Source: a virus. Taken from it: a DNA stretch of 27,408 nucleotides. The stretch is from positions 1 to 27,408 of IMG/VR virus record IMGVR_UViG_3300023184_000440; one strand, given 5' to 3'. How positions within the stretch are numbered: the stretch's first letter is position 1; every line of letters starts with the position of its first letter. The position numbers and the translations under genes are program-made. Of this stretch, positions 6,482 through 25,138 are shown in pieces. Under the pieces are notes generated by a model. The model ran no database searches, was not told the origin of the DNA, and was given only the letters and a program-made list of their open reading frames with translations.

Positions 6482-6563
6482 TTATCACCGACTTTCTTTT
6501 GTTGTATTCAGTTGTGAACTTCTAGGAATAAAGCGAAATCATAAGTATGTCATTAAAAAGCGA

Positions 6564-6596
6564 GATCCGTGGCGCTTTGGAAGCATACCACGGATC
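6564..6596 (-). terminator. Rho-independent terminator with a promoter -10 box in its loop
   Basis: A perfect 9-bp inverted repeat: GATCCGTGG at 6564-6572 and CCACGGATC at 6588-6596. On the minus strand it is followed by TCGC and a T run (TTTTT). It would end transcripts coming from the lysozyme and glycosyltransferase genes. The loop contains the -10 box of the promoter at 6582-6610. Confidence 0.7.
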
Positions 6597-6610
6597 AACG
6601 AAGCTGACAA
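6582..6610 (-). promoter_or_regulatory. Sigma70-type promoter threaded through the terminator
   Basis: On the minus strand TTGTCA (6610-6605) is followed by a 17-base spacer and TATGCT (6587-6582). Each box matches the consensus at 5 of 6 positions. The spacer covers the first arm of the terminator and the -10 box lies in its loop. A transcript started about seven bases further on (near 6575) would lack the first arm and so could not form the terminator. It would drive the operon from 6481 to dnaE. Confidence 0.65.
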
Positions 6611-10663: not shown

Positions 10664-10777
10664 TTATTTTTTTCTACTTATCCTTTCTAACATAACAGCA
10701 AAGCATATACCAATAAACCAAAAAGGTATACTTGCTATCATGCTTGACATCAGGATATAAACACCTATAATTTCCAT
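10664..10777 (-). CDS. Tiny membrane peptide (37 aa), holin candidate
   Basis: A 37-residue reading frame that fills most of the gap between the 176-residue gene and the peptidase gene. It encodes MEIIGVYILMSSMIASIPFW, then FIGICFAVMLERISRKK. This is one long hydrophobic helix (about 3-30) ending in a basic tail, as expected of an inner-membrane peptide with a cytoplasmic C-terminus. The ribosome site is poor. The stop is five bases before the peptidase ATG. A position directly upstream of a lysin makes a holin or antiholin role possible, but there is no homology evidence. Confidence 0.45.
   Translation of the reverse strand: MEIIGVYILMSSMIASIPFWFIGICFAVMLERISRKK
10744..10771 (+). promoter_or_regulatory. 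Perfect sigma70 consensus on the antisense strand
   Basis: TTGACA at 10744-10749, 16-base spacer, TATAAT at 10766-10771: 12 of 12 consensus bases, pointing right, against every gene here. It would make RNA antisense to the 176-residue gene. No sensible plus-strand gene follows. It lies inside the tiny membrane peptide gene, so it could be a chance product of AT-rich sequence. Confidence 0.35.
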
Positions 10778-11979: not shown

Positions 11980-12258
11980 TCACTCTTTAAGAATTCCAAT
12001 AACAAAATTTTCTTTGCAAGTTAGAAACATTACATCTCCAACCCTGCTTTCTTCAACCATGTTTCCTTCAATCAAAACTAGTGCACCAATATGTACTGAT
12101 ACAATACAATCATTTGAATAATCAAGTACGCGAAACACTTCGTTATCAGATCTGTTCTTCTTTGACTTGTCCGGAAGAATAAAGCCAGATTGAGGTTGTT
12201 CCTCTTCTGTCTTTACCCTTTCCAAGACAAGTCGCTTATTTCTTGCTTCAAGTTTCAT
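11980..12258 (-). CDS. GroES-type cochaperonin
   Basis: A 92-residue GroES/gp31-like cochaperonin that would cap host GroEL, probably to fold phage proteins such as the capsid protein. It opens with EARNKRLVLERVKTEEEQPQ. SGFILPDKSK corresponds to the GroES mobile loop (GGIVL), the part that grips GroEL. EVFRVLDYSND and a GDVMFL strand match the GroES barrel (GxVLAVG, VKVGDIVIF). Length is close to the usual 95-97 residues. The ATG lies 2 bases beyond the stop of the 93-residue gene, and a strong terminator follows. Confidence 0.8.
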   Translation of the reverse strand: MKLEARNKRLVLERVKTEEEQPQSGFILPDKSKKNRSDNEVFRVLDYSNDCIVSVHIGALVLIEGNMVEESRVGDVMFLTCKENFVIGILKE

Positions 12259-16123: not shown

Positions 16124-17088
16124 GGCGCGGTCTTGTGATCATTGATCATCCTATTGAAAGTGGTAAATAATTCATTTAAATTCAAATCAGCAAATCCATC
16201 CATAATGGAAGATTTTAAAAATTCTGTTTTGTTAAATTCTGGTATAAAATTATCTAAAACATAATCACTTTTGCGTTGTGACTGAAGAGACATGTTTGGC
16301 TGGTAGAGTTGCATAATTTGATAGTTTAAGCATATTTTTTCTTTTTCTGCCAATATACTTTCAAATATTTTTCCACCTTCTTTAGTGTTTTCGCATTTCT
16401 CAAAGATATCATCAGTCGTATACCTTTCTTCTTCGGCAAGCCATTGGAATTTCTTGGCTAAATTTACCAATCCAACACCGCGAACACCATCAAGATTGTC
16501 ACTTTTGTCTCCCACAATAGAACGAGCAAGAGCAAAATTATTTGGATGAATCTTAAATTCTTCAATAACACGATTCTTGTTTAAGATCTCTTCTTGAACA
16601 GGTCGCATTAGTATAGTTTTATCGTCCAATAATTGAATAAAGTCTTTATCACTGGATACAATTACTTTTACATAATTTTTATGATTTTTGTGTTGAACAA
16701 CATAAGAAATGATATCATCTGCTTCAACATTTTCTTCCATTAATTGGATTACTGGGCAGAAATTGAGATAATCAAAGGTTTTAAATTGTTGCCAGATACG
16801 ATTTTCAAATTCTTGCTTGTCATCTAACACCTGCATGTTCCTATTAAGACGCAATGGGTTTCTTCCCTCTTTATAATCCTTGTGAAGAGCTTTTTTCTTC
16901 ATACTGCCGCCAGGTCCATCATGACAAATAATGATTTTGTCTGGTTTTGTCTCACGACTAATTTTTTGTAAAGACTTGAAAACACCAACTATTCCACCAA
17001 TAGGTTGTCCTTGTTTAGAAATAGACGGATTAACAACATAAGAACGAATGAACAAGTTCAGAAAATCAATTATCAATATTTTTTTCAT
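16120..17088 (-). CDS. 5'-3' exonuclease / RNase H of the FEN family
   Basis: A 322-residue structure-specific nuclease related to T4 RNase H and the 5' nuclease domain of Pol I. It would remove RNA primers and flaps. Metal-binding acids are seen in LIIDFLN (Asp8), IICHDGPG (Asp57), VEADDIISY (about 121-129), SSDKDF (Asp147, Asp149) and GDKSDNLDGVRGVG (Asp194, Asp197, with the helix-hairpin-helix). HKDYKEGR is the usual basic segment. The ATG at 17088 is chosen because AGGA precedes it and the upstream in-frame sequence runs into a hairpin. Polymerase and nuclease are separate genes here, with the family A polymerase at 22641-23825. Confidence 0.92.
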   Translation of the reverse strand: MKKILIIDFLNLFIRSYVVNPSISKQGQPIGGIVGVFKSLQKISRETKPDKIIICHDGPGGSMKKKALHKDYKEGRNPLRLNRNMQVLDDKQEFENRIWQQFKTFDYLNFCPVIQLMEENVEADDIISYVVQHKNHKNYVKVIVSSDKDFIQLLDDKTILMRPVQEEILNKNRVIEEFKIHPNNFALARSIVGDKSDNLDGVRGVGLVNLAKKFQWLAEEERYTTDDIFEKCENTKEGGKIFESILAEKEKICLNYQIMQLYQPNMSLQSQRKSDYVLDNFIPEFNKTEFLKSSIMDGFADLNLNELFTTFNRMINDHKTAP

Positions 17089-17124
17089 AGCATTTGTCCT
17101 ATATGGTATTGTAATAAAGAATAG

Positions 17125-17148
17125 ATGTGCCCCCATGCGGGGGCACAT
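17125..17148 (-). terminator. GC-rich hairpin before the exonuclease gene
   Basis: A 10-bp stem (ATGTGCCCCC with its complement, 17125-17134 and 17139-17148) with a four-base ATGC loop. The sequence after it on either strand has no solid T run. It may be a weak terminator, an RNA-processing site or a 3'-end protector between the 63-residue gene and the exonuclease gene. Confidence 0.5.
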
Positions 17149-17163
17149 TTATAGTTATATTAT

Positions 17164-17355
17164 TTAGCGTTTGTGATTGAAATTTATAACTAGTTGAAAG
17201 TGATAATCGCCGCTGTCAGTCTCAAAACCAGTAATGCTTTTATCTTCCAAAACAATACCTTTTTTTGCACACCAACCTTTTAGTGCTTCAAGCACTTCAT
17301 GTTTTTCAAATACATAACGTCCCTCGGATGTCTGTTGATTGAAATTACTCTGCAT
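17164..17355 (-). CDS. Hypothetical protein (63 aa)
   Basis: A 63-residue protein of unknown role, with a helix (VFEKHEVLEALKGWCAKKGI) followed by two likely strands (SGDYHFQLVINF). Its ATG overlaps the TGA of the preceding gene (TGATG), implying coupled translation. It lies in the deaminase-to-exonuclease operon. Confidence 0.6.
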   Translation of the reverse strand: MQSNFNQQTSEGRYVFEKHEVLEALKGWCAKKGIVLEDKSITGFETDSGDYHFQLVINFNHKR

Positions 17356-17750
17356 CAGTGGACCACATCTTGCGAATTGGGTTGCGAATTAGTCAACATC
17401 ATATTGTCATTTTTTGAAAACAATAAACCATTATTCTGCTTTTTAATATTTACAAACTTCCAGCCAGTATCTGTTTGAGAAGAAACTGTGATCTTGCCAG
17501 AAAGACCGCTATGAAGCAGCGACAGTTGTAGATTTTTGCGAATACGCTCGGCAATATCTTGCTTTTTAGTATTGAATACCAATTCAGTATATGTAATATT
17601 GCTTGGATAATTTTCCTTGATATATCGGTTCATAATAATGAGCCGACGATCTGACCTTTCCATAGTAAGAAACAAATACTTGATCTTATTAATGTGTTCG
17701 TGTTCTTTTTGAACTTTAATTTTTACGCTGACAATAAAATTCTTATTCAT
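17355..17750 (-). CDS. Hypothetical protein (131 aa)
   Basis: A basic 131-residue protein with no recognised family. It begins MNKNFIVSVKIKVQKEHEH and includes an Arg/Lys-rich helix (ERSDRRLIIMNRYIKENY). The ATG at 17750 is chosen over one eight codons upstream because AAAGGA lies six bases before it. It sits 13 bases after the deaminase-like gene and overlaps the next gene. It could bind nucleic acid by charge, but that is only a guess. Confidence 0.6.
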   Translation of the reverse strand: MNKNFIVSVKIKVQKEHEHINKIKYLFLTMERSDRRLIIMNRYIKENYPSNITYTELVFNTKKQDIAERIRKNLQLSLLHSGLSGKITVSSQTDTGWKFVNIKKQNNGLLFSKNDNMMLTNSQPNSQDVVH

Positions 17751-17763
17751 AATGTTTCCTTTT

Positions 17764-18195
17764 TTAGATAGCAATGAATTCAGTTACAACAAACTTACCA
17801 TGATGCGAGTCGCCATGACGATCAAGAAACAGATTGGTAAGTTTACTTGGTTGTCCAATAAGGCCAATCATGTCGCGGTTCTTCAACTGGCTTACGATGC
17901 CATCGTCGTTCAAATATGTCACGCGTGAAACGCCTGCTTGTTTCAAGTTATGTTGACAAAGAAGACATGGCTTACCATTATGATTTTCGCGAGCAATATT
18001 AGAAGTTGTATTATTGAAACGATACAAATAAAACTTGCTACCGTTTGCTTTTTCTCCCAATTTACTCAACAAATCAATTTCAGCGTGCATTGAACATTTG
18101 AAAACCGACTTATTACGGGCATAACGACGCTTATTTACTCCAAAATTAATAATCTTACCGCCTTTTACGGCAAAAGCAACAATTTGGTGCTGCAA
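17764..18195 (-). CDS. Cytidine/deoxycytidylate deaminase-fold protein, 5' end uncertain
   Basis: A zinc-dependent deaminase-fold protein. Residues are numbered from the TTG at 18195. KGGKIINFGVN leads into HAE at 37-39 (zinc His and proton-shuttling Glu), and PCLLC at 76-80 gives the other two zinc ligands, followed by GVSRVTYLND. dCMP deaminase is the likely role given the thymidylate genes nearby, but other substrates are possible. The start is odd. A strong ribosome site and ATG lie at 18265, but that frame stops after 12 codons. The sequence between (LAESIATEYRDDTLQHQ in the deaminase frame) looks like a genuine N-terminal helix. Either TTG is used or a +1 shift joins the two frames. Confidence 0.7.
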   Translation of the reverse strand: MQHQIVAFAVKGGKIINFGVNKRRYARNKSVFKCSMHAEIDLLSKLGEKANGSKFYLYRFNNTTSNIARENHNGKPCLLCQHNLKQAGVSRVTYLNDDGIVSQLKNRDMIGLIGQPSKLTNLFLDRHGDSHHGKFVVTEFIAI

Positions 18196-18226
18196 GGTGT
18201 CATCACGATATTCAGTGGCAATACTT

Positions 18227-18265
18227 TCAGCGAGATACTACAAACGACGAATAATTCATATTCAT
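18227..18265 (-). other. Short leader frame or frameshifted start of the deaminase gene
   Basis: Twelve codons (MNMNYSSFVVSR) then TGA, preceded by an excellent AGGAGGG ribosome site a few bases before the ATG. It is the first translatable frame after the promoter at 18301-18329. The deaminase frame is +1 to it and is open from just before its stop. It is either a leader peptide or the true N-terminus separated from the body by a one-base shift. Confidence 0.55.
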
Positions 18266-18300
18266 CCCTCCTGTTGACCCGCCCGGGGCGTTGGTCAGCC

Positions 18301-18329
18301 ATCATAACAGGGGATCTCTGCCATGTCAA
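18301..18329 (-). promoter_or_regulatory. Near-perfect sigma70 promoter for the deaminase-exonuclease operon
   Basis: On the minus strand TTGACA (18329-18324), 17-base spacer, TATGAT (18306-18301), 11 of 12 consensus bases. The predicted start is near 18295. The short GC-rich leader can fold as a stem-loop (TGACC with GGTCA around a CGCC/GGCG core) ending just before the ribosome site. Confidence 0.85.
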
Positions 18330-18352
18330 GCGGCAGGGCGGTACAAATAAGA

Positions 18353-18372
18353 AACCCGCATTTCTGCGGGTT
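18353..18372 (-). terminator. Rho-independent terminator after the recombinase gene
   Basis: An 8-bp stem AACCCGCA / TGCGGGTT with a four-base loop, followed on the minus strand by TCTTATTT. It begins seven bases after the recombinase stop codon and sits upstream of the promoter at 18301-18329. Confidence 0.85.
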
Positions 18373-18378
18373 CTTTTA

Positions 18379-19545
18379 TCAATGCTGAATATCTTCTCCC
18401 TTACCATCATTAAGAAAATCTGACGCATTTCCAATTTTTTTATCAAACTTCTGGATTACTTCATAATCAAAAATTTCCATAACGCGTTGTTTGAATTTAT
18501 CATTGGTCTTCATTAGTTTAGTAAATCCTTCTTCAAGACCTTGCCATTTTTCTACTGTTCCGTCGGCATAAGTTAGTTTATTCCATACGCCACTTTCAAG
18601 ATGATCTGTTTTGCCTTTGATTGCTTCAAGTATACTTTCTTCATTCATTACGCCGACTGTGTCTCCCCATAGGATTTTGAACTCTGCAACACGATTCTGC
18701 GTTCCGAACCTACTTTTTTCTATGCGTGCTTTGACATTAGAACCAATCTGGTAGCCTTTGTCATCATAAACCATACTATCTTTGGCAAATGACTTTGTGA
18801 GCCATATACGAAGACTGGTGAAGTAATCTGGTGAACTTCCACCCGGAGTATTATATTTCTGGCTGTCAGTCAAATACTTTCCACCCATTGGGGCTTCACT
18901 TGTTGCTTTAATGTTTATTTTTAGTTGGTTCAAAATCAATAGTGTACATTCTCTTTGGGCAAGAGGTGTAGTTATTTTTTGAAATGCTTTTGCCAATAGC
19001 GCAGCCTTTACACCAATACGTTCATTTGGATTAAAAGTTCCTTCTGTGTCAACTTTTGTTGGTGTAGCAGCAAGGCTATCAATAATAAATAAGAATTTCT
19101 GATCACTTGAACCCATCAATGTTTCAATGGTTTCAAATACAGTTTCAAGATCAGGAGGCTGAATATAAATCAAATCATCTACATTACATCCTGCTTTTTC
19201 TAAGAATTCACTATTCAAAGCACTCTCAGCATCAAAATATACTGGAGTGATCTCTTGCTTTTGAGCATTACCAGCAATTTGGGCTGCGAGATAACTTTTA
19301 CCTGTAGCTTGTAAGCCTGCTAATTCCACTATTTTTCCAACGGGAATGCCGCCCATCTTTCCTTTGGCTACAATGGCGTCAAGCCAAGTAGAACCAGTGG
19401 AAATCCACTCTTTTACATCAGTTGGATTTTCTTTATTTAGATCAAAAACAGCACCTTTCAGTTTTGAATTAAGAGATTTCCTCAATTCACTAACATCTAC
19501 TTTACCGACTTTTACTTCTTGTTTTTCTTTAATTCTTGCTGCCAT
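18379..19545 (-). CDS. uvsX: UvsX/RecA-type recombinase
   Basis: A 388-residue strand-exchange ATPase for recombination-dependent replication and repair. Walker A is GLQATGKS at about 77-84, an acid strand follows at VYFDAESAL (about 102-110), and Walker B is FLFIIDSLAA at about 151-160. LLILNQLKINI and GGKYLTDSQKYNTPGG correspond to the L1/L2 DNA-binding region. Length and layout fit phage UvsX-like RecA proteins; the Walker A differs from bacterial RecA (GPESSGKT). AGGAG precedes the ATG. It has its own promoter (19597-19625), which overlaps the terminator of the single-strand binding protein gene. Confidence 0.9.
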   Translation of the reverse strand: MAARIKEKQEVKVGKVDVSELRKSLNSKLKGAVFDLNKENPTDVKEWISTGSTWLDAIVAKGKMGGIPVGKIVELAGLQATGKSYLAAQIAGNAQKQEITPVYFDAESALNSEFLEKAGCNVDDLIYIQPPDLETVFETIETLMGSSDQKFLFIIDSLAATPTKVDTEGTFNPNERIGVKAALLAKAFQKITTPLAQRECTLLILNQLKINIKATSEAPMGGKYLTDSQKYNTPGGSSPDYFTSLRIWLTKSFAKDSMVYDDKGYQIGSNVKARIEKSRFGTQNRVAEFKILWGDTVGVMNEESILEAIKGKTDHLESGVWNKLTYADGTVEKWQGLEEGFTKLMKTNDKFKQRVMEIFDYEVIQKFDKKIGNASDFLNDGKGEDIQH

Positions 19546-19585
19546 TTGTATTCTCCTGAATATTTCTTTTGGTTCAAAAAGAAAA

Positions 19586-19615
19586 CCACCAAAGAGATTT
19601 TAACCTCTTTGGTGG
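19586..19615 (-). terminator. Rho-independent terminator after ssb, with promoter -10 in its loop
   Basis: Perfect 11-bp repeat (CCACCAAAGAG at 19586-19596, CTCTTTGGTGG at 19605-19615), 8-base loop, then TTTTCTTTTTG on the minus strand. The loop bases ATTTTA (TAAAAT on the minus strand) are the -10 box of the recombinase promoter. Confidence 0.9.
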
Positions 19616-19625
19616 CTCCTGTCAA
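19597..19625 (-). promoter_or_regulatory. Sigma70 promoter threaded through the ssb terminator
   Basis: On the minus strand TTGACA (19625-19620), 17-base spacer, TAAAAT (19602-19597). The spacer contains the first terminator arm and the -10 box is in the loop. Transcription starting near 19590 would lack the first arm, so the new transcript escapes the terminator that stops the upstream one. It drives the recombinase gene. Confidence 0.75.
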
Positions 19626-19638
19626 GTACTAGATATCA

Positions 19639-20376
19639 TCAAAGGTCTAGTTCGCGAATAGCAGCGTCTACAGCATTATCAACGCCACCACCCTTTTCCA
19701 CACCAACACTGGTTTCATCTGGTTCAGCAAGATGCTTATCCAATGCAGCCTGTACTTCCTTTGTGGTCATTCTCGTAAAGATAGCTGAAAGATCAGGAAT
19801 ACTATCCAGCAAATCTTTACACTCCTGACTATCAAGTCCCTTGCACATTGGGGTTGACTTTGGTTTTGGCTTTACGCCCATCATTGAATACCGAGCGCCA
19901 GGCTTCTTGTTCTTATCAACTTTCAAATCAAATCCGTTTTCTGGATCAGTAATATCTCCAAAGTCTGGGTCAAGAACAGTCTTCAGAAGTTCCTCGTAAA
20001 CGACCTTACTGTATGACCATACCTTTACTCCGTCCTTTTCACTTCCCCGAACAAGGATTGGTGAAAGAAAACGTTGACGGACGAAAAGTTCCTTTGCAGC
20101 AGCTACGCTATCAGGTTCACCTGACTTGAATAGCTTGGTTGCAAATTCGCAAATCGGACAATCTTCTCCGAAATTACGCTTTGGACACATTACACTCTGG
20201 CTTCCAACATTATAATGGAACCAGAACTCCTTGAACGGATCACCATCTGGGGTTGGCAGAATACGTACTTCGTGAAGCCCATCTTCTGGCTTCCAAAAGG
20301 CTGATTCTGAATTTGACTTACCTTTGTTGTTGAGCTTCTCAAGTTTTTTCTGCATAGCGCGAATATCAATACCCAT
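19639..20376 (-). CDS. Single-stranded DNA-binding protein, T4 gp32 type
   Basis: A 245-residue gp32-like protein that coats single-stranded DNA at the fork. The N-terminal basic segment (MQKKLEKLNNKGKS) fits the cooperativity region. A zinc site is formed by His54, Cys64, Cys73 and Cys76 (FHY...MCPK...CPIC), the same His-Cys-Cys-Cys order as T4 gp32. The aromatic-rich core follows, and the acidic tail (LAEPDETSVGVEKGGGVDN...IRELDL) fits the partner-binding C-terminus. The ATG has AAGGAG upstream and is preceded by a roughly 150-base leader with an inverted repeat. T4 gp32 controls its own translation through its leader; a similar scheme is possible here. Confidence 0.85.
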   Translation of the reverse strand: MGIDIRAMQKKLEKLNNKGKSNSESAFWKPEDGLHEVRILPTPDGDPFKEFWFHYNVGSQSVMCPKRNFGEDCPICEFATKLFKSGEPDSVAAAKELFVRQRFLSPILVRGSEKDGVKVWSYSKVVYEELLKTVLDPDFGDITDPENGFDLKVDKNKKPGARYSMMGVKPKPKSTPMCKGLDSQECKDLLDSIPDLSAIFTRMTTKEVQAALDKHLAEPDETSVGVEKGGGVDNAVDAAIRELDL

Positions 20377-20454
20377 AATTAATTACTCCTTGTGGCACGT
20401 CAACTTATTGTTGCGTAGACCGTTAATGTTGGAACTAACAATGCCAATCATATT

Positions 20455-20489
20455 GTCGGTAAGCATATCAAATAACTTTCAATACCGAC
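20455..20489 (-). repeat. Inverted repeat in the ssb leader
   Basis: GTCGGTA (20455-20461) and TACCGAC (20483-20489), a perfect 7-bp stem with a 21-base loop, about 80 bases before the ssb ATG. The leader of the adjacent upstream gene has a related ACCGA/TCGGT stem. It could be a protein-binding operator or an RNA autoregulatory element. Confidence 0.45.
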
Positions 20490-20525
20490 TCATATACAAC
20501 TAACATGCTCTCATAAAAAAGTAAA

Positions 20526-20543
20526 GGGCAGATTTCTCCGCCC
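20526..20543 (-). terminator. Rho-independent terminator after the basic-tail protein gene
   Basis: On the minus strand GGGCGGA-GAAA-TCTGCCC, a 7-bp stem with one G-T pair and a GNRA-type tetraloop, followed by TTTACTTTTTT. It lies 24 bases after the stop codon. Confidence 0.8.
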
Positions 20544-20566
20544 CAAACTTCAAGTATCTTTACTTA

Positions 20567-20953
20567 TCAGCTACGTGAACGACTCTTAGTCTTTACTACG
20601 TTACGAGCACGGGTTGCAGTAACACGACCTGAAGCTGCTGACTTCTTTGCACGCGTAGAAGTAGTGGTAGCAGCTACACGATCACGTACCGTGAGTGAAC
20701 AATCTACTGGAACTACTGCGCGGCTATCTTCAGTTGCATATACTTGACCCGTAGCTACATTTGCAAACATAAATGAATCTACTTCATCTAGCGTACCTTC
20801 TTCCAGTGAACGAGCACTAACTGAAAGTAGTTGATATACAGTTCCGGAAGCTGAACGTGGAAAGCGGAAAGTCTCTCCTGCACGAAGATGAGAAAGCGTT
20901 ACACGTCCGGCTTTTCCGGTTGGACCACGACGATTAACAGTTACTTTTGACAT
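20567..20953 (-). CDS. Small protein with beta-rich core and basic tail
   Basis: A 128-residue protein. The core (about 1-90) has strands such as AGETFRFPRSASGTVYQLLSVS and DSFMFANVATGQVYATE. The tail (about 91-128) is composed almost only of Ala, Thr, Ser, Arg, Lys and Val and ends KTKSRSRS, like nucleic-acid-binding tails of chromatin proteins. Its DNA is richer in G and C than that of its neighbours, perhaps for high expression. The ATG at 20953 is chosen because AAGGAA precedes it and a strong promoter lies just upstream; the longer in-frame extension overlaps that promoter. It may be a DNA- or RNA-binding accessory factor beside the single-strand binding protein. Family unknown. Confidence 0.7.
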   Translation of the reverse strand: MSKVTVNRRGPTGKAGRVTLSHLRAGETFRFPRSASGTVYQLLSVSARSLEEGTLDEVDSFMFANVATGQVYATEDSRAVVPVDCSLTVRDRVAATTTSTRAKKSAASGRVTATRARNVVKTKSRSRS

Positions 20954-20973
20954 TTTGAGTTCCTTTGTTAGAG

Positions 20974-21000
20974 CACCGACAACCGCTTGGGTATTCGGTG
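20974..21000 (-). repeat. Stem-loop in the leader of the basic-tail protein gene
   Basis: CACCGA (20974-20979) and TCGGTG (20995-21000) form a perfect 6-bp stem, with a short inner ACC/GGT pairing. It sits in the 58-base leader between the promoter and the ribosome site and is a candidate regulatory RNA element. Confidence 0.45.
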
Positions 21001-21011
21001 ATGATGGACCA

Positions 21012-21040
21012 ATCTTAGCAGAGATCAGATCGCTTGTCAA
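21012..21040 (-). promoter_or_regulatory. Sigma70 promoter overlapping the stop codon of the tubulin-like gene
   Basis: On the minus strand TTGACA (21040-21035), 17-base spacer, TAAGAT (21017-21012), 11 of 12 consensus bases. The TGA of the upstream gene (21039-21037) lies inside the -35 box. It drives the basic-tail protein gene. Confidence 0.8.
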
Positions 21041-21879
21041 GTCTGGCTCGGAGGCTGGATGAACTTGGTTTTTGCGACACAATAAACAAAATTTTCTTTG
21101 TAGTTTGTTTCATATATTTGAAACAATATTTTAACATTTTCTTTTTGTTTCTCTTTAATCTGAGACTTAATGGTTTGTAGCAGATTTTTTTCTTTTTTCA
21201 ACGTGTTTGAATTGATAGCAAAGTAATAAACAATTTCTTCTATATTATTCAATTCAAAAAACCACTTTACTTCTGTGGTACCTATTTCAGACAATCCGTA
21301 GGTCTGAATTCTTGTTATGTCACTTAATTCTATATTATTAGACAATATAGGCTTTATGTTGCTATAGATGTTAATATAATGAGAAGTAGAAGAAATCAAG
21401 TTAGTTAACTGATCGTTCATTTCTAGAATACTAACTTGATTCAGTATTTTTTCTAAATTTATTTTATCAAAAGCTACAAAGGTTTTAAACAGTCCGGATC
21501 TTGTATATTCTTGTAAAATACTGAATGTGATCTTGTCTTGTAATCTTTCAATATTACCCATTAATTCTAAATCAGAACGAACATAATAGATATTGATTTT
21601 TCTTTTTTTAAAATTTTCTAAAAATGCCAGTATTATTCCACTTATAGGTTCCGAACCATCAACAAATACTGATATTTCATCATTCTTGTCAAGAATAAAA
21701 TCTTTTAATTCTTTTGAACACTTTTTTTCATATTCTTCAGAATTTTTAAATTCTGGCATGACAAATGTATTACATTCATTCTCGCTTGTATCTATGCTAT
21801 AAACTTCATATTGAGGATATGAAGAAAATTTATTTACAAGCTCAGAACAAAAACTACCTATTCCAACCAAAGAAATCAT
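21037..21879 (-). CDS. Divergent FtsZ/tubulin-like protein (putative)
   Basis: A 280-residue protein whose order of elements follows FtsZ. A glycine-bearing first loop is LVGIGSFCSELVNKF (4-18), then EVYSIDTSE (25-33, like FtsZ AVNTD). VFVDGSEPISGIILAF (71-86) takes the place of the GGGTGTG tubulin signature, and INIYYVRSDLEL (95-106) that of VGVVTKPF. FKTFVAFDKINLEKIL (131-146) matches the LIVIPNDKLLEVL strand and helix. NNIELSDITR (181-190) matches the T7 loop NLDFADVKT, keeping the Asn and two acidic residues. The G-loop is degenerate, so GTP binding is doubtful. It might form or modulate filaments, or be a repurposed fold. The ATG at 21879 takes its ribosome site (AAGGA) from the end of the endonuclease gene. 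Pattern-based, not database-confirmed. Confidence 0.5.
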   Translation of the reverse strand: MISLVGIGSFCSELVNKFSSYPQYEVYSIDTSENECNTFVMPEFKNSEEYEKKCSKELKDFILDKNDEISVFVDGSEPISGIILAFLENFKKRKINIYYVRSDLELMGNIERLQDKITFSILQEYTRSGLFKTFVAFDKINLEKILNQVSILEMNDQLTNLISSTSHYINIYSNIKPILSNNIELSDITRIQTYGLSEIGTTEVKWFFELNNIEEIVYYFAINSNTLKKEKNLLQTIKSQIKEKQKENVKILFQIYETNYKENFVYCVAKTKFIQPPSQT

Positions 21880-21880
21880 A

Positions 21881-22615
21881 TTATTTTCCTTCTTGTTTCT
21901 TCGCTGATATTCTGCCTTTAAGTGCTTCACTGATTTTCTTTTTATGTTCTTCGCTGTGTTTTTTACCTTTAAGTGTTTCACGGATTTTCATTTTTGTTTC
22001 TTCGGAGTGTTTTTTACCTTTATTTGCTTCACCTATTTTTCTTTTCGTTTCTTCGCTTCTATTTCTATTTACTTCACTGATTTTCCTTCTTGTTTCTTCG
22101 CTGAATATCTTGCCTTTGTGGGCTTCACTCATTTTCCTTCTTGTTTCTTCGCTGATATTCTGTTTTGCTTCAATCATTTTCTGCCTTGCTTCTTCGCTTA
22201 CTACTTTGCCTTTAAGTGTTTCACGGATTTTCATTTTTGTTTCTTCGGAGCGTTTTTTACCTTTATTTGCTTCACCTATTTTTCTTTTCGTTTCTTCGCT
22301 GCGCTTCATTCCAAGATGAGAACCAGCAACTTTACATAGATTATAACCTCTATCAACTTCATAGGATTTATAATAATTTAAATAAACTTGTTCATATGCT
22401 AATAAGTGTTCTTGATTTATTACTTCTTCTATTATCTCAAATGTGAAACTTTGTTCTCCATATTTATCCCAGGCTTTTTGTAAATGTTCGGAGTGATGTT
22501 TTCTTTCGTTCAGATAATGCTTGTGTTGTGACCATCTTTTAGAGATATTAACTGCCGAACCTACATAAACTTTATTGTTTATTTTATTTTTTATTAGATA
22601 TATACCACTTTTCAT
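21881..22615 (-). CDS. GIY-YIG homing endonuclease with tandem NUMOD3-like repeats
   Basis: A 244-residue homing endonuclease. The GIY-YIG domain covers about 1-95: GIYLI at 4-8, [13 protein letters not shown] at 17-28 with the catalytic Arg27, and the probable Glu75 in [12 protein letters not shown]. Residues 103-240 are eight or so tandem copies of a 14-18-residue helical motif ([16 protein letters not shown] and variants) of the NUMOD3 DNA-binding type. This is many more copies than the two to four usually seen, and a 92-base block is duplicated within them. GIY-YIG enzymes of this kind nick or cut next to their host gene. It lies between the family A polymerase and the tubulin-like gene, with AGGAG before its ATG. 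Confidence 0.92.
21966..22057 (-). repeat. 92-base direct repeat, copy 1, within the NUMOD3 array
   Basis: Identical to 22209-22300 except for one base (AGTGT against AGCGT). The offset is 243 bases, a whole number of codons. It encodes [16 protein letters not shown] plus most of the next motif. Confidence 0.9.
22209..22300 (-). repeat. 92-base direct repeat, copy 2, within the NUMOD3 array
   Basis: Partner of the copy at 21966-22057. The near identity, including third positions, shows a recent in-frame duplication or gene conversion inside the DNA-binding array. Confidence 0.9.
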
Positions 22616-22640
22616 ATAAATTTCTCCTATATGTAAGTAG

Positions 22641-23825
22641 TCAGATGTTTATTTTCCTCATATCTCCCAAAGTCTTACCAATCTTAACCGATGACTTAAA
22701 TTTACCAAACTCAGTATTGTTATATACATCAACAATTTGTTGAATCAAGTGTTTATCTTCTTTTTTCATGTCAATAACAATATTATCATGAATAACAATT
22801 TTAATCTTTGATTGACTACCTTTTAACAATTCATTTACTTTTAAAGCTTGCCTCAAGGCAAGACCTGCTGTCGTACTTTGAACAATATAATTTACTGAGT
22901 GGAACTCATCTGCTTCAATGACCTTACCATAATGATTTTTAACTGTTCTTCCATCCCAATACTTCTTCTTAATTAAGTCTGAGTTATAAATTTCTTTAAA
23001 TTGCTTTTCTTTTTCATTCTTCTTACCATACAACCAAGAAATGAATTCGTTTTTTGCCACTTTTCTATCATCGTAACCAAATTTAACTCGGTTCCACTCA
23101 TGGATATCATTAATAGGCTGATTGAGTCCACTTAGAGCAAGAAACATACGAACTTCTGCAGCATTATAATCAATATCAAGCAGGAAGTCTCCATCTGGTT
23201 TAATGAAGCCTCTCAAGTCTTTGCTTAAGTTCAAAATTGGAAAACTATTATCATCTGTTGTCAGCCGACCAGTTTTTGAATGGAACTGATTATAAACAAT
23301 CAAGTTATCTCTGTTAGAGTATTTTTGATGAAACTCTTTTACTTTATTATCATGTAAATTGTTTTTAATCAAGCTTTCATCAAATGAAAGTTTTTGAAAC
23401 GAGATATCTTGGATCAAGATTGATAAATCTTTTTGAAAATCATAATCAATTGGTTTTGGATTATTTTCTATAATATGATCAATTATCTGACACTTAATAT
23501 CACAAAAATCAATTAAAAATTTGCGTGGAACAAGATCGTAAAAACAATTTTCTTTTAATGAAACCTTTGCTTCAATAAAAGAACGAATAAATGATTTTGC
23601 TTGTGTGTTAAGCGATATCCAAAGATCTTTTAGATGTTCTGGACATGCTTCTTCATAATCTTTTCCTTCGCAGAAAAGACTAGCATATAAAGTATTTTTA
23701 TTGCTAAATTTTGAATATTTCCAAGTTTTATCTAAAATTTCAACTGGGGCTTGACCAAATATAAGTTCGCCATTAGAATAGAACCCGATGCATTCACTTT
23801 TATCGTCTAGCGTTAGGTAAGTCAT
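22641..23825 (-). CDS. Compact family A DNA polymerase (Pol I palm/fingers only)
   Basis: A 394-residue family A polymerase, much shorter than Pol I (about 900) or T7 polymerase (about 700). It has no 5' nuclease and no recognisable 3'-5' exonuclease domain. [19 protein letters not shown] (183-201) is the TGRLSSxxPNLQN block. Motif A is [10 protein letters not shown] (217-226) with catalytic Asp219. The fingers helix is [14 protein letters not shown] (254-267). Motif C is VIHDN (344-348), with Asn in place of the usual Glu after the catalytic Asp347. It probably fills gaps or repairs DNA alongside DnaE and the free 5' nuclease. The ATG follows its promoter -10 box by only eight bases and has no ribosome site, so translation may be leaderless. 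Confidence 0.88.
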
Positions 23826-23833
23826 AAGAACCG

Positions 23834-23862
23834 ATCATAGCCGCAATCTAGCCCAATGTCAA
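23834..23862 (-). promoter_or_regulatory. Near-perfect sigma70 promoter for the family A polymerase
   Basis: On the minus strand TTGACA (23862-23857), 17-base spacer, TATGAT (23839-23834), 11 of 12 consensus bases. It begins one base after the stop codon of the upstream gene. The polymerase ATG starts at 23825, about where transcription should begin. Confidence 0.85.
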
Positions 23863-23863
23863 C

Positions 23864-25138
23864 CTATAGGAATGTTTTCGTATATTTTATATCGCCTGTA
23901 TCTCTTGCACTCTTACATTTATTATTAATAAAATCAAAAGCAGCAATATTTCCATTATATCTATTAATTGTCAAAATTTCAGAAAACATCTGTTCAAATT
24001 GACTTTCAGATGAAATTATGTTATTTTCTTTTACTTTTATGTAAAAATATAATTTTAATAAATTTTCTTCTGGCATATGATTGTACAGATCTTCATATCG
24101 TATAAATTGTCTTAGAATTTGTTTTTCATATATGCACGCTTTACCATTTTTAAAACTTGTTTGTACACTTCTTGCAATTGGTTGTTCTTTTACAATAAAA
24201 TTAAATAAATTTAATAAATAAATCTTTAAACTTTCAAAATTAAAATATTCAGTAAAATAATAAAATTGATCAAAATAAGAGTTTAGCTCTTGAGCATCAT
24301 AAGATTGTAAATATTGTTTAGCATTTGCCCCAGCAATATCAAAAGTCAATCTCCAAGGAGAGTGTTTATCCATTACAAAGCCATGTTGTTTTGATAAGGT
24401 ATCAAATATACCGAAAGACTCATCAATTAAATAATTTTCATATGATTTTTTATCATCACCATGTTTATCCGGACCGATCTCAACAACTAAAGCAGAACAA
24501 TAAGGAGAACATGCAGCAGTTCTCATAAATTCTGTTTTATTGAATATCTTGTCGTTTTGATTATAAAAAAATATAAAATATTTTACAAATGTCTTAAAGT
24601 CAACAATTTTGTTATTTAATTTATTGTTGTTGATAAAGTCATAAAATTTGTTAAAATAAGCATTGATATATTCAGAATGTTGTAAATTTGCAGAAATAAA
24701 TGCTTTTTTTGGTTTTATATTGTAAAACTTACTTTTTGAACTTATAGCATTTGAATCTATTAAACGTTTGTGACGACTATACAATGCGTTAAAAGCATCA
24801 GCTGCCGGTGAAACAAGCATTAATTTTTGATCTGCGTCTAAGCTTTTTAATTTGTTTTCATCAATATTGATAATATCATTATTTAAATTTAACTTTCCGT
24901 ATAATTGATGTGAATAAAGATAATCTTTAAAATTTTCTGAAATCACTCCATTCATCACAGTGACGCTGTTAAACTCTGATTCGTAATTTAATCTTTGATA
25001 ATACAAGATTTTTGTTGTTAGGTTATTATTTCCTTGTGGGATTATTCTATACTTTGGATCGGTAGAATACAGATCAGCTTGATCAGCTATTCTGTTCATT
25101 TCCTGAAGGTATTTGTCTTGTGTGTTTTTATATTTCAT
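23864..25138 (-). CDS. Putative virion-associated protein (424 aa)
   Basis: A 424-residue, Asn/Tyr/Phe/Lys-rich soluble protein. There are no transmembrane segments and no catalytic motif that I recognise. KQHGFVMDKHSPWRLTFDIAG (about 247-267) resembles a block I associate with uncharacterised structural-region proteins of large marine myoviruses. AACSPYCSALVVEIGPDKHGDDKK is another distinctive block. It is 9 bases below the large gene at the window's right end and shares its composition, so the two are likely co-transcribed and possibly parts of the neck, tail or baseplate. The ribosome site is poor. Function remains open. Confidence 0.6.
   Translation of the reverse strand: MKYKNTQDKYLQEMNRIADQADLYSTDPKYRIIPQGNNNLTTKILYYQRLNYESEFNSVTVMNGVISENFKDYLYSHQLYGKLNLNNDIINIDENKLKSLDADQKLMLVSPAADAFNALYSRHKRLIDSNAISSKSKFYNIKPKKAFISANLQHSEYINAYFNKFYDFINNNKLNNKIVDFKTFVKYFIFFYNQNDKIFNKTEFMRTAACSPYCSALVVEIGPDKHGDDKKSYENYLIDESFGIFDTLSKQHGFVMDKHSPWRLTFDIAGANAKQYLQSYDAQELNSYFDQFYYFTEYFNFESLKIYLLNLFNFIVKEQPIARSVQTSFKNGKACIYEKQILRQFIRYEDLYNHMPEENLLKLYFYIKVKENNIISSESQFEQMFSEILTINRYNGNIAAFDFINNKCKSARDTGDIKYTKTFL

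Follow-up and report, generated by a model that had tools for sequence, protein, structure and literature searches.

A probable terminator-promoter fusion at the ssb-uvsX junction of uncultivated T4-related phages

Sequence signals of an intrinsic terminator and of a sigma70-type promoter overlap at the junction between the ssb and uvsX genes of a T4-related phage and its close relatives. Judging from its sequence, the element, called site 2, is very probably an intrinsic terminator fused to a sigma70-type promoter, a unit which would insulate two adjoining transcription units. The window, i.e. the whole stretch of DNA analyzed, is an entire IMG/VR record (IMGVR_UViG_3300023184_000440) of 27,408 bases, and the genome is incomplete. 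A sequence-only reading of the window had placed a promoter within a terminator at 19586-19625, between ssb and a recombinase gene. Both points are borne out: an 11-bp stem with TAAAAT in the loop and TTGACA 17 bases upstream is found on the minus strand, between the end of a gp32-like ORF (19639) and the start of a uvsX-like ORF (19545). All features are listed in Table 1. Phages of this group feature gp32 and UvsX, and a DNA polymerase of family A; no family B DNA polymerase was detected in carriers of the fused element, in the records searched.

Table 1. Position of the signals at sites 1 and 2, and of the genes flanking site 2, in the window
Feature	Coordinates	Strand	Evidence
-35 hexamer TTGACA	19620..19625	-	sequence; TTGAC invariant in 15 related contigs
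-10 hexamer TAAAAT, in hairpin loop, 17 nt past -35	19597..19602	-	TAA[A/T]AT in 15/15 contigs
Core stem, 5' arm CCACCAAAGAG, within promoter spacer	19605..19615	-	fold; double-sided changes among 15 relatives
Core stem, 3' arm CTCTTTGGTGG	19586..19596	-	fold
Complete terminator hairpin, with the A-T and G-U pairs outside the core	19582..19619	-	fold
Terminator T-tract TTTTCTTTTT	19576..19585	-	sequence; T-rich in all relatives
Site 1, weaker candidate: hairpin, TTGTCA-17-TATGCT, tail TCGCTTTTTA	6562..6610	-	sequence, fold
gp32-like single-strand DNA-binding protein (ssb), upstream gene	19639..20376	-	PF08804 E 8e-13, phrog_1192 E 3e-27
UvsX/RecA-like recombinase, downstream gene	18379..19545	-	PF00154 E 1e-34, phrog_97 E 1e-50
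AGGAG ribosome-binding site of uvsX-like gene	19553..19557	-	sequence

The minus-strand sequence TTGACA-N17-TAAAAT (19625-19597) matches the promoter consensus at 11 of 12 positions. The hexamers are conserved in 15 contigs, and the distance between them falls within the 16–18 nt that separate the conserved hexamers of sigma70-type promoters. The core stem is made by 11 bp, all perfectly paired, and the loop is GTTAAAAT. RNA folding of the hairpin (19619-19582) gave values of -24 to -25 kcal/mol (z -3.7), and the T-tract directly follows, so that a GC-containing stem and a T-tract occur together, as in intrinsic (Rho-independent) terminators. Given the usual distance between -10 and +1, transcription would be expected to start at ~19590, within the 3' arm. 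In 200 dinucleotide-preserving shuffles of the window, terminator-like hairpins with a promoter matching at least 11/12 positions at the loop were never found.

The close set includes 15 contigs, the window being one of them, with ssb 83–100% identical. The element is kept at the ssb-uvsX junction in all 15. The TTGAC residues, the 17-nt spacing and the motif TAA[A/T]AT are unchanged throughout, and four versions of the core stem were found. Covariation was counted from the arms themselves: three of ten core pairs are changed on both sides (C-G/G-C, A-T/T-A, A-T/G-C), and pairing is kept in 150 of 150 pair cells. The 5' arm is one base off relative to the -35 hexamer in three contigs, in which both pairing and promoter spacing are still intact. 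The fixed hexamers and spacing, combined with a compensated stem, indicate that promoter and hairpin are both under constraint.

The element might alternatively be a promoter alone with a palindromic spacer, the hairpin serving as a structured 5' end or as a translational operator. Most elements of phage RB49 featuring the -10 in the loop would fit such a reading, as they have no T-run directly after the stem. At site 2, in contrast, the tract following the stem is T-rich in all relatives, and a start at ~19590 would exclude the 5' arm from the uvsX RNA, so that pairing would not be preserved for a 5' structure; we consider a promoter alone very unlikely. A point against the fused reading is that the element is dispensable at this junction: in Microcystis phage Mel-JY01, the closest isolate found, the ssb-uvsX gap measures only 8 bases and no element is located there, and most distant relatives carry at the same place a plain terminator or none.

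When the close group alone was analyzed by offset and permutation tests with a 9/12 cut-off, 3 composites were observed vs 2.7 expected, a result which is not decisive because the composites of this group are nearly all one homologous site. More distant relatives, in which UvsX is ~50% identical, provided 155 loci and 670 non-redundant terminators. Promoters with the -10 centred on the hairpin loop were counted, and compared to those found at 20 other offsets. Promoters matching at least 10/12 positions were found at the loop of 17 of the 670 terminators, against a mean of 1.9 at the other offsets, and those matching at least 11/12 were 10, against a mean of 0.55. These counts are not fully independent, because related contigs inherited the element of a given junction from a common ancestor. 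An earlier subset, analyzed with permuted motifs as control, gave 9/284 against a mean of 0.54. An excess over chance in related genomes was the test set in advance by the sequence-only reading, and such an excess was found. Its suggestion that the design, rather than the sequence, is repeated agrees with the stems of the distant composites, which are mostly unrelated in sequence.

Almost all loop-centred composites (16 of 17) lie on the plus strand of their locus, which is the strand of ssb and uvsX. The ORF context was analyzed for 14 hits of an earlier scan, several of which match only 9/12 positions: most are intergenic, often located directly after uvsX, and two fall inside a same-strand ORF. 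Perfect 12/12 promoters mark composites just after uvsX in L029 (12001) and L032 (12023), and a third 12/12 composite was found in L199 (11161). Several of the stems after uvsX are alike (GCCTT...TGTGTTA), and their similarity suggests that they may share descent. At the uvsX 3' junction, which holds the fused form in distant relatives, the two signals are adjacent and unfused in the window: a separate terminator (18376-18349, minus strand) precedes by ~20 bases the promoter TTGACA-17-TATGAT (18329-18301), whose -10 is preceded by TG.

These data bear on two other readings of site 2. The first is that of a terminator alone, in which the AT-rich loop and TTGACA resemble the promoter consensus by chance. 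Promoter-like matches are frequent in this phage DNA, which is ~34% GC (99 found vs 78 expected), but neither the hexamers nor the spacer change across 15 contigs in which the stem varies, promoters peak at the loop in distant relatives, and the shuffled windows yielded none; a fortuitous promoter is thus quite unlikely. The second, that the palindrome extrudes in DNA and presents the -10 as a single-stranded loop, as in phage N4, with its hairpin promoters, or in the ssDNA promoters of plasmids, strikes us as most improbable. In the close group the -10 falls within the loop or right at it, as extrusion would have it, but it lies partly in the stem in several distant relatives (L029, L032, L065), and the conserved 17-nt spacing suits ordinary double-stranded sigma70 recognition.

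A second site in the window, at 6564-6610, had been described as having the same geometry. This holds in part. The hairpin of site 1 is sound (stem GATCCGTGG/CCACGGATC, plus further pairs), the promoter spacer measures 17 nt, and the stem is unrelated to that of site 2. The promoter, in contrast, matches only 9/12 positions, with TG before the -10, and since 9/12 composites occur at 0.22 per shuffled window, the match alone is not above chance. Site 1 was found in a single relative, G001, whose sequence identity over the region is 95%, and conservation of the site therefore says little. Site 1 is weaker than site 2, and as a promoter may be due to chance. A perfect 12/12 promoter (TTGACA-17-TATAAT, 6408-6380, minus strand), better than that of site 1, is located in a short ORF downstream.

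The fused terminator and promoter at site 2 could work as follows, the activity of both signals, the start point, the timing in infection and the polymerase reading the element being predicted from the DNA. Polymerase molecules coming from ssb would make the full hairpin and the U-tract, and then stop. The host holoenzyme, or a phage-modified host enzyme, would bind TTGACA-N17-TAAAAT and start near 19590, in the 3' arm. RNA begun there would lack the 5' arm and contain only part of the 3' arm, hence would form no hairpin and read into uvsX. Segments with little sequence demand would serve twice: the promoter spacer as 5' arm, the terminator loop as -10, and the beginning of the new transcript as 3' arm and T-tract. 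Because each signal uses parts left free by the other, both fit together without conflict. In the sequence-only reading, polymerase bound at the promoter could interfere with terminator formation and so link the expression of the two genes; as the hairpin arises in RNA being made by a different polymerase molecule, the bound enzyme would rather be a roadblock than a block to hairpin folding.

Regulatory overlap may be envisaged as an addition to the fused element, not as an alternative to it. The polymerase ending the ssb RNA would stay on the DNA and restart at the promoter, coupling uvsX to ssb. E. coli polymerase is known to remain on DNA after intrinsic termination in vitro, to slide and to restart (PMC6978322, PMC6978380), and an overlapping promoter would be the shortest possible path. 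Plain compaction, however, accounts for the layout, and terminator and promoter after the uvsX gene of the window are separate; coupling is in our opinion unlikely. Each ssb transcript could then prime a uvsX transcript, via polymerase released by the terminator and captured by the promoter inside it, in an arrangement made many times by this phage group with unrelated stems, and this also is unlikely. Site 2 is a natural template for asking whether polymerase restarts where it just terminated.

PeSLs (promoter(early) stem-loops) join in one element a stem-loop terminator, effective in vivo, to a strong sigma70-type promoter that is active early. They are found as many copies, similar in sequence and able to recombine, in hyperplastic regions among non-essential genes. 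The fused design is not new, being known as PeSL in T4-type phages since 2010 (Arbiol et al. 2010 and Comeau et al. 2014 on composite promoter-terminator motifs of T4-like phages, as cited in PMC4503421). In the part of RB49 scanned, the -10 falls inside the loop of a hairpin in about seven near-consensus promoters (TTGACA-16/17-TATAAT-like). The one at L089 3201 (TTGACA-16-TATAAT) has a long stem followed by a tail rich in T, and matches site 2 in stem, loop and tail.

Site 2 resembles PeSLs in the fusion of promoter and stem-loop, with the -10 at the loop, and the phage group resembles T4 in having a Gp23-type capsid protein, found in 10 of 13 related records. In contrast to PeSLs, site 2 lies at a junction of core replication genes, not in a plastic region, and has a canonical T-tract. 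The window, a 27-kb incomplete record, carries two candidates with unrelated stems, and thus no repeats for recombination. Carriers also differ, as phages with site 2 have the family A, and not a detectable family B, polymerase. Since the traits linked to shuffling, i.e. similar copies and a plastic location, are not seen in the incomplete record, site 2 is best classed, on its sequence features, as a variant of the known composite rather than as a true PeSL. The terminator-promoter fusion of RB49-type phages hence extends to a large uncultivated T4-related group, in which mostly unrelated stems and the location at core genes argue that it is not only a recombination cassette but a general means of keeping transcription compact and insulated. 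In the haloarchaeal myovirus HGTV-1 a TATA box and an inverted repeat precede many ORFs, an arrangement likened to PeSLs in the literature (PMC3950731). A promoter element and an inverted repeat are found in both HGTV-1 and site 2, but promoter and host of HGTV-1 are archaeal.

Searching the window against Rfam and for tRNAs yielded nothing, and the T4 late promoter TATAAATA occurs in 5 copies, which is the chance level. The DNA-level search of isolates with the region 17000-23900 gave short matches only, nearly all to homing endonucleases. Those of the region 21881-22615 are to homing endonucleases of Bacillus phage G, Sinorhizobium phage phiM9 and T4-like phages. The ORF residing there (minus strand) features repeated motifs and a GIY-YIG-like start, and is probably a homing endonuclease. 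The family A DNA polymerase ORF (22641-23825, minus strand) is only ~394 aa long, and adjoins an unassigned ORF of 424 aa (23864-25138). As short polymerase ORFs (394-414 aa) are common to the relatives, the remaining domains may sit in a separate gene or be missing.

Further signals mark the window. A hairpin of ~20 pairs with a T-rich tail and no promoter in the loop (11971-11927, minus strand) follows a 92-aa ORF (11980-12258). A very strong two-way hairpin (ATGTGCCCCC/GGGGGCACAT, 17121-17152) overlaps the called 5' end of an exonuclease-like ORF, which suggests that the true start codon is further downstream. A perfect 12/12 promoter on the plus strand (TTGACA-16-TATAAT, 10744-10771) opposes the surrounding minus-strand genes, and is faced by TTGATA-16-TATAAT on the minus strand (10815-10788).
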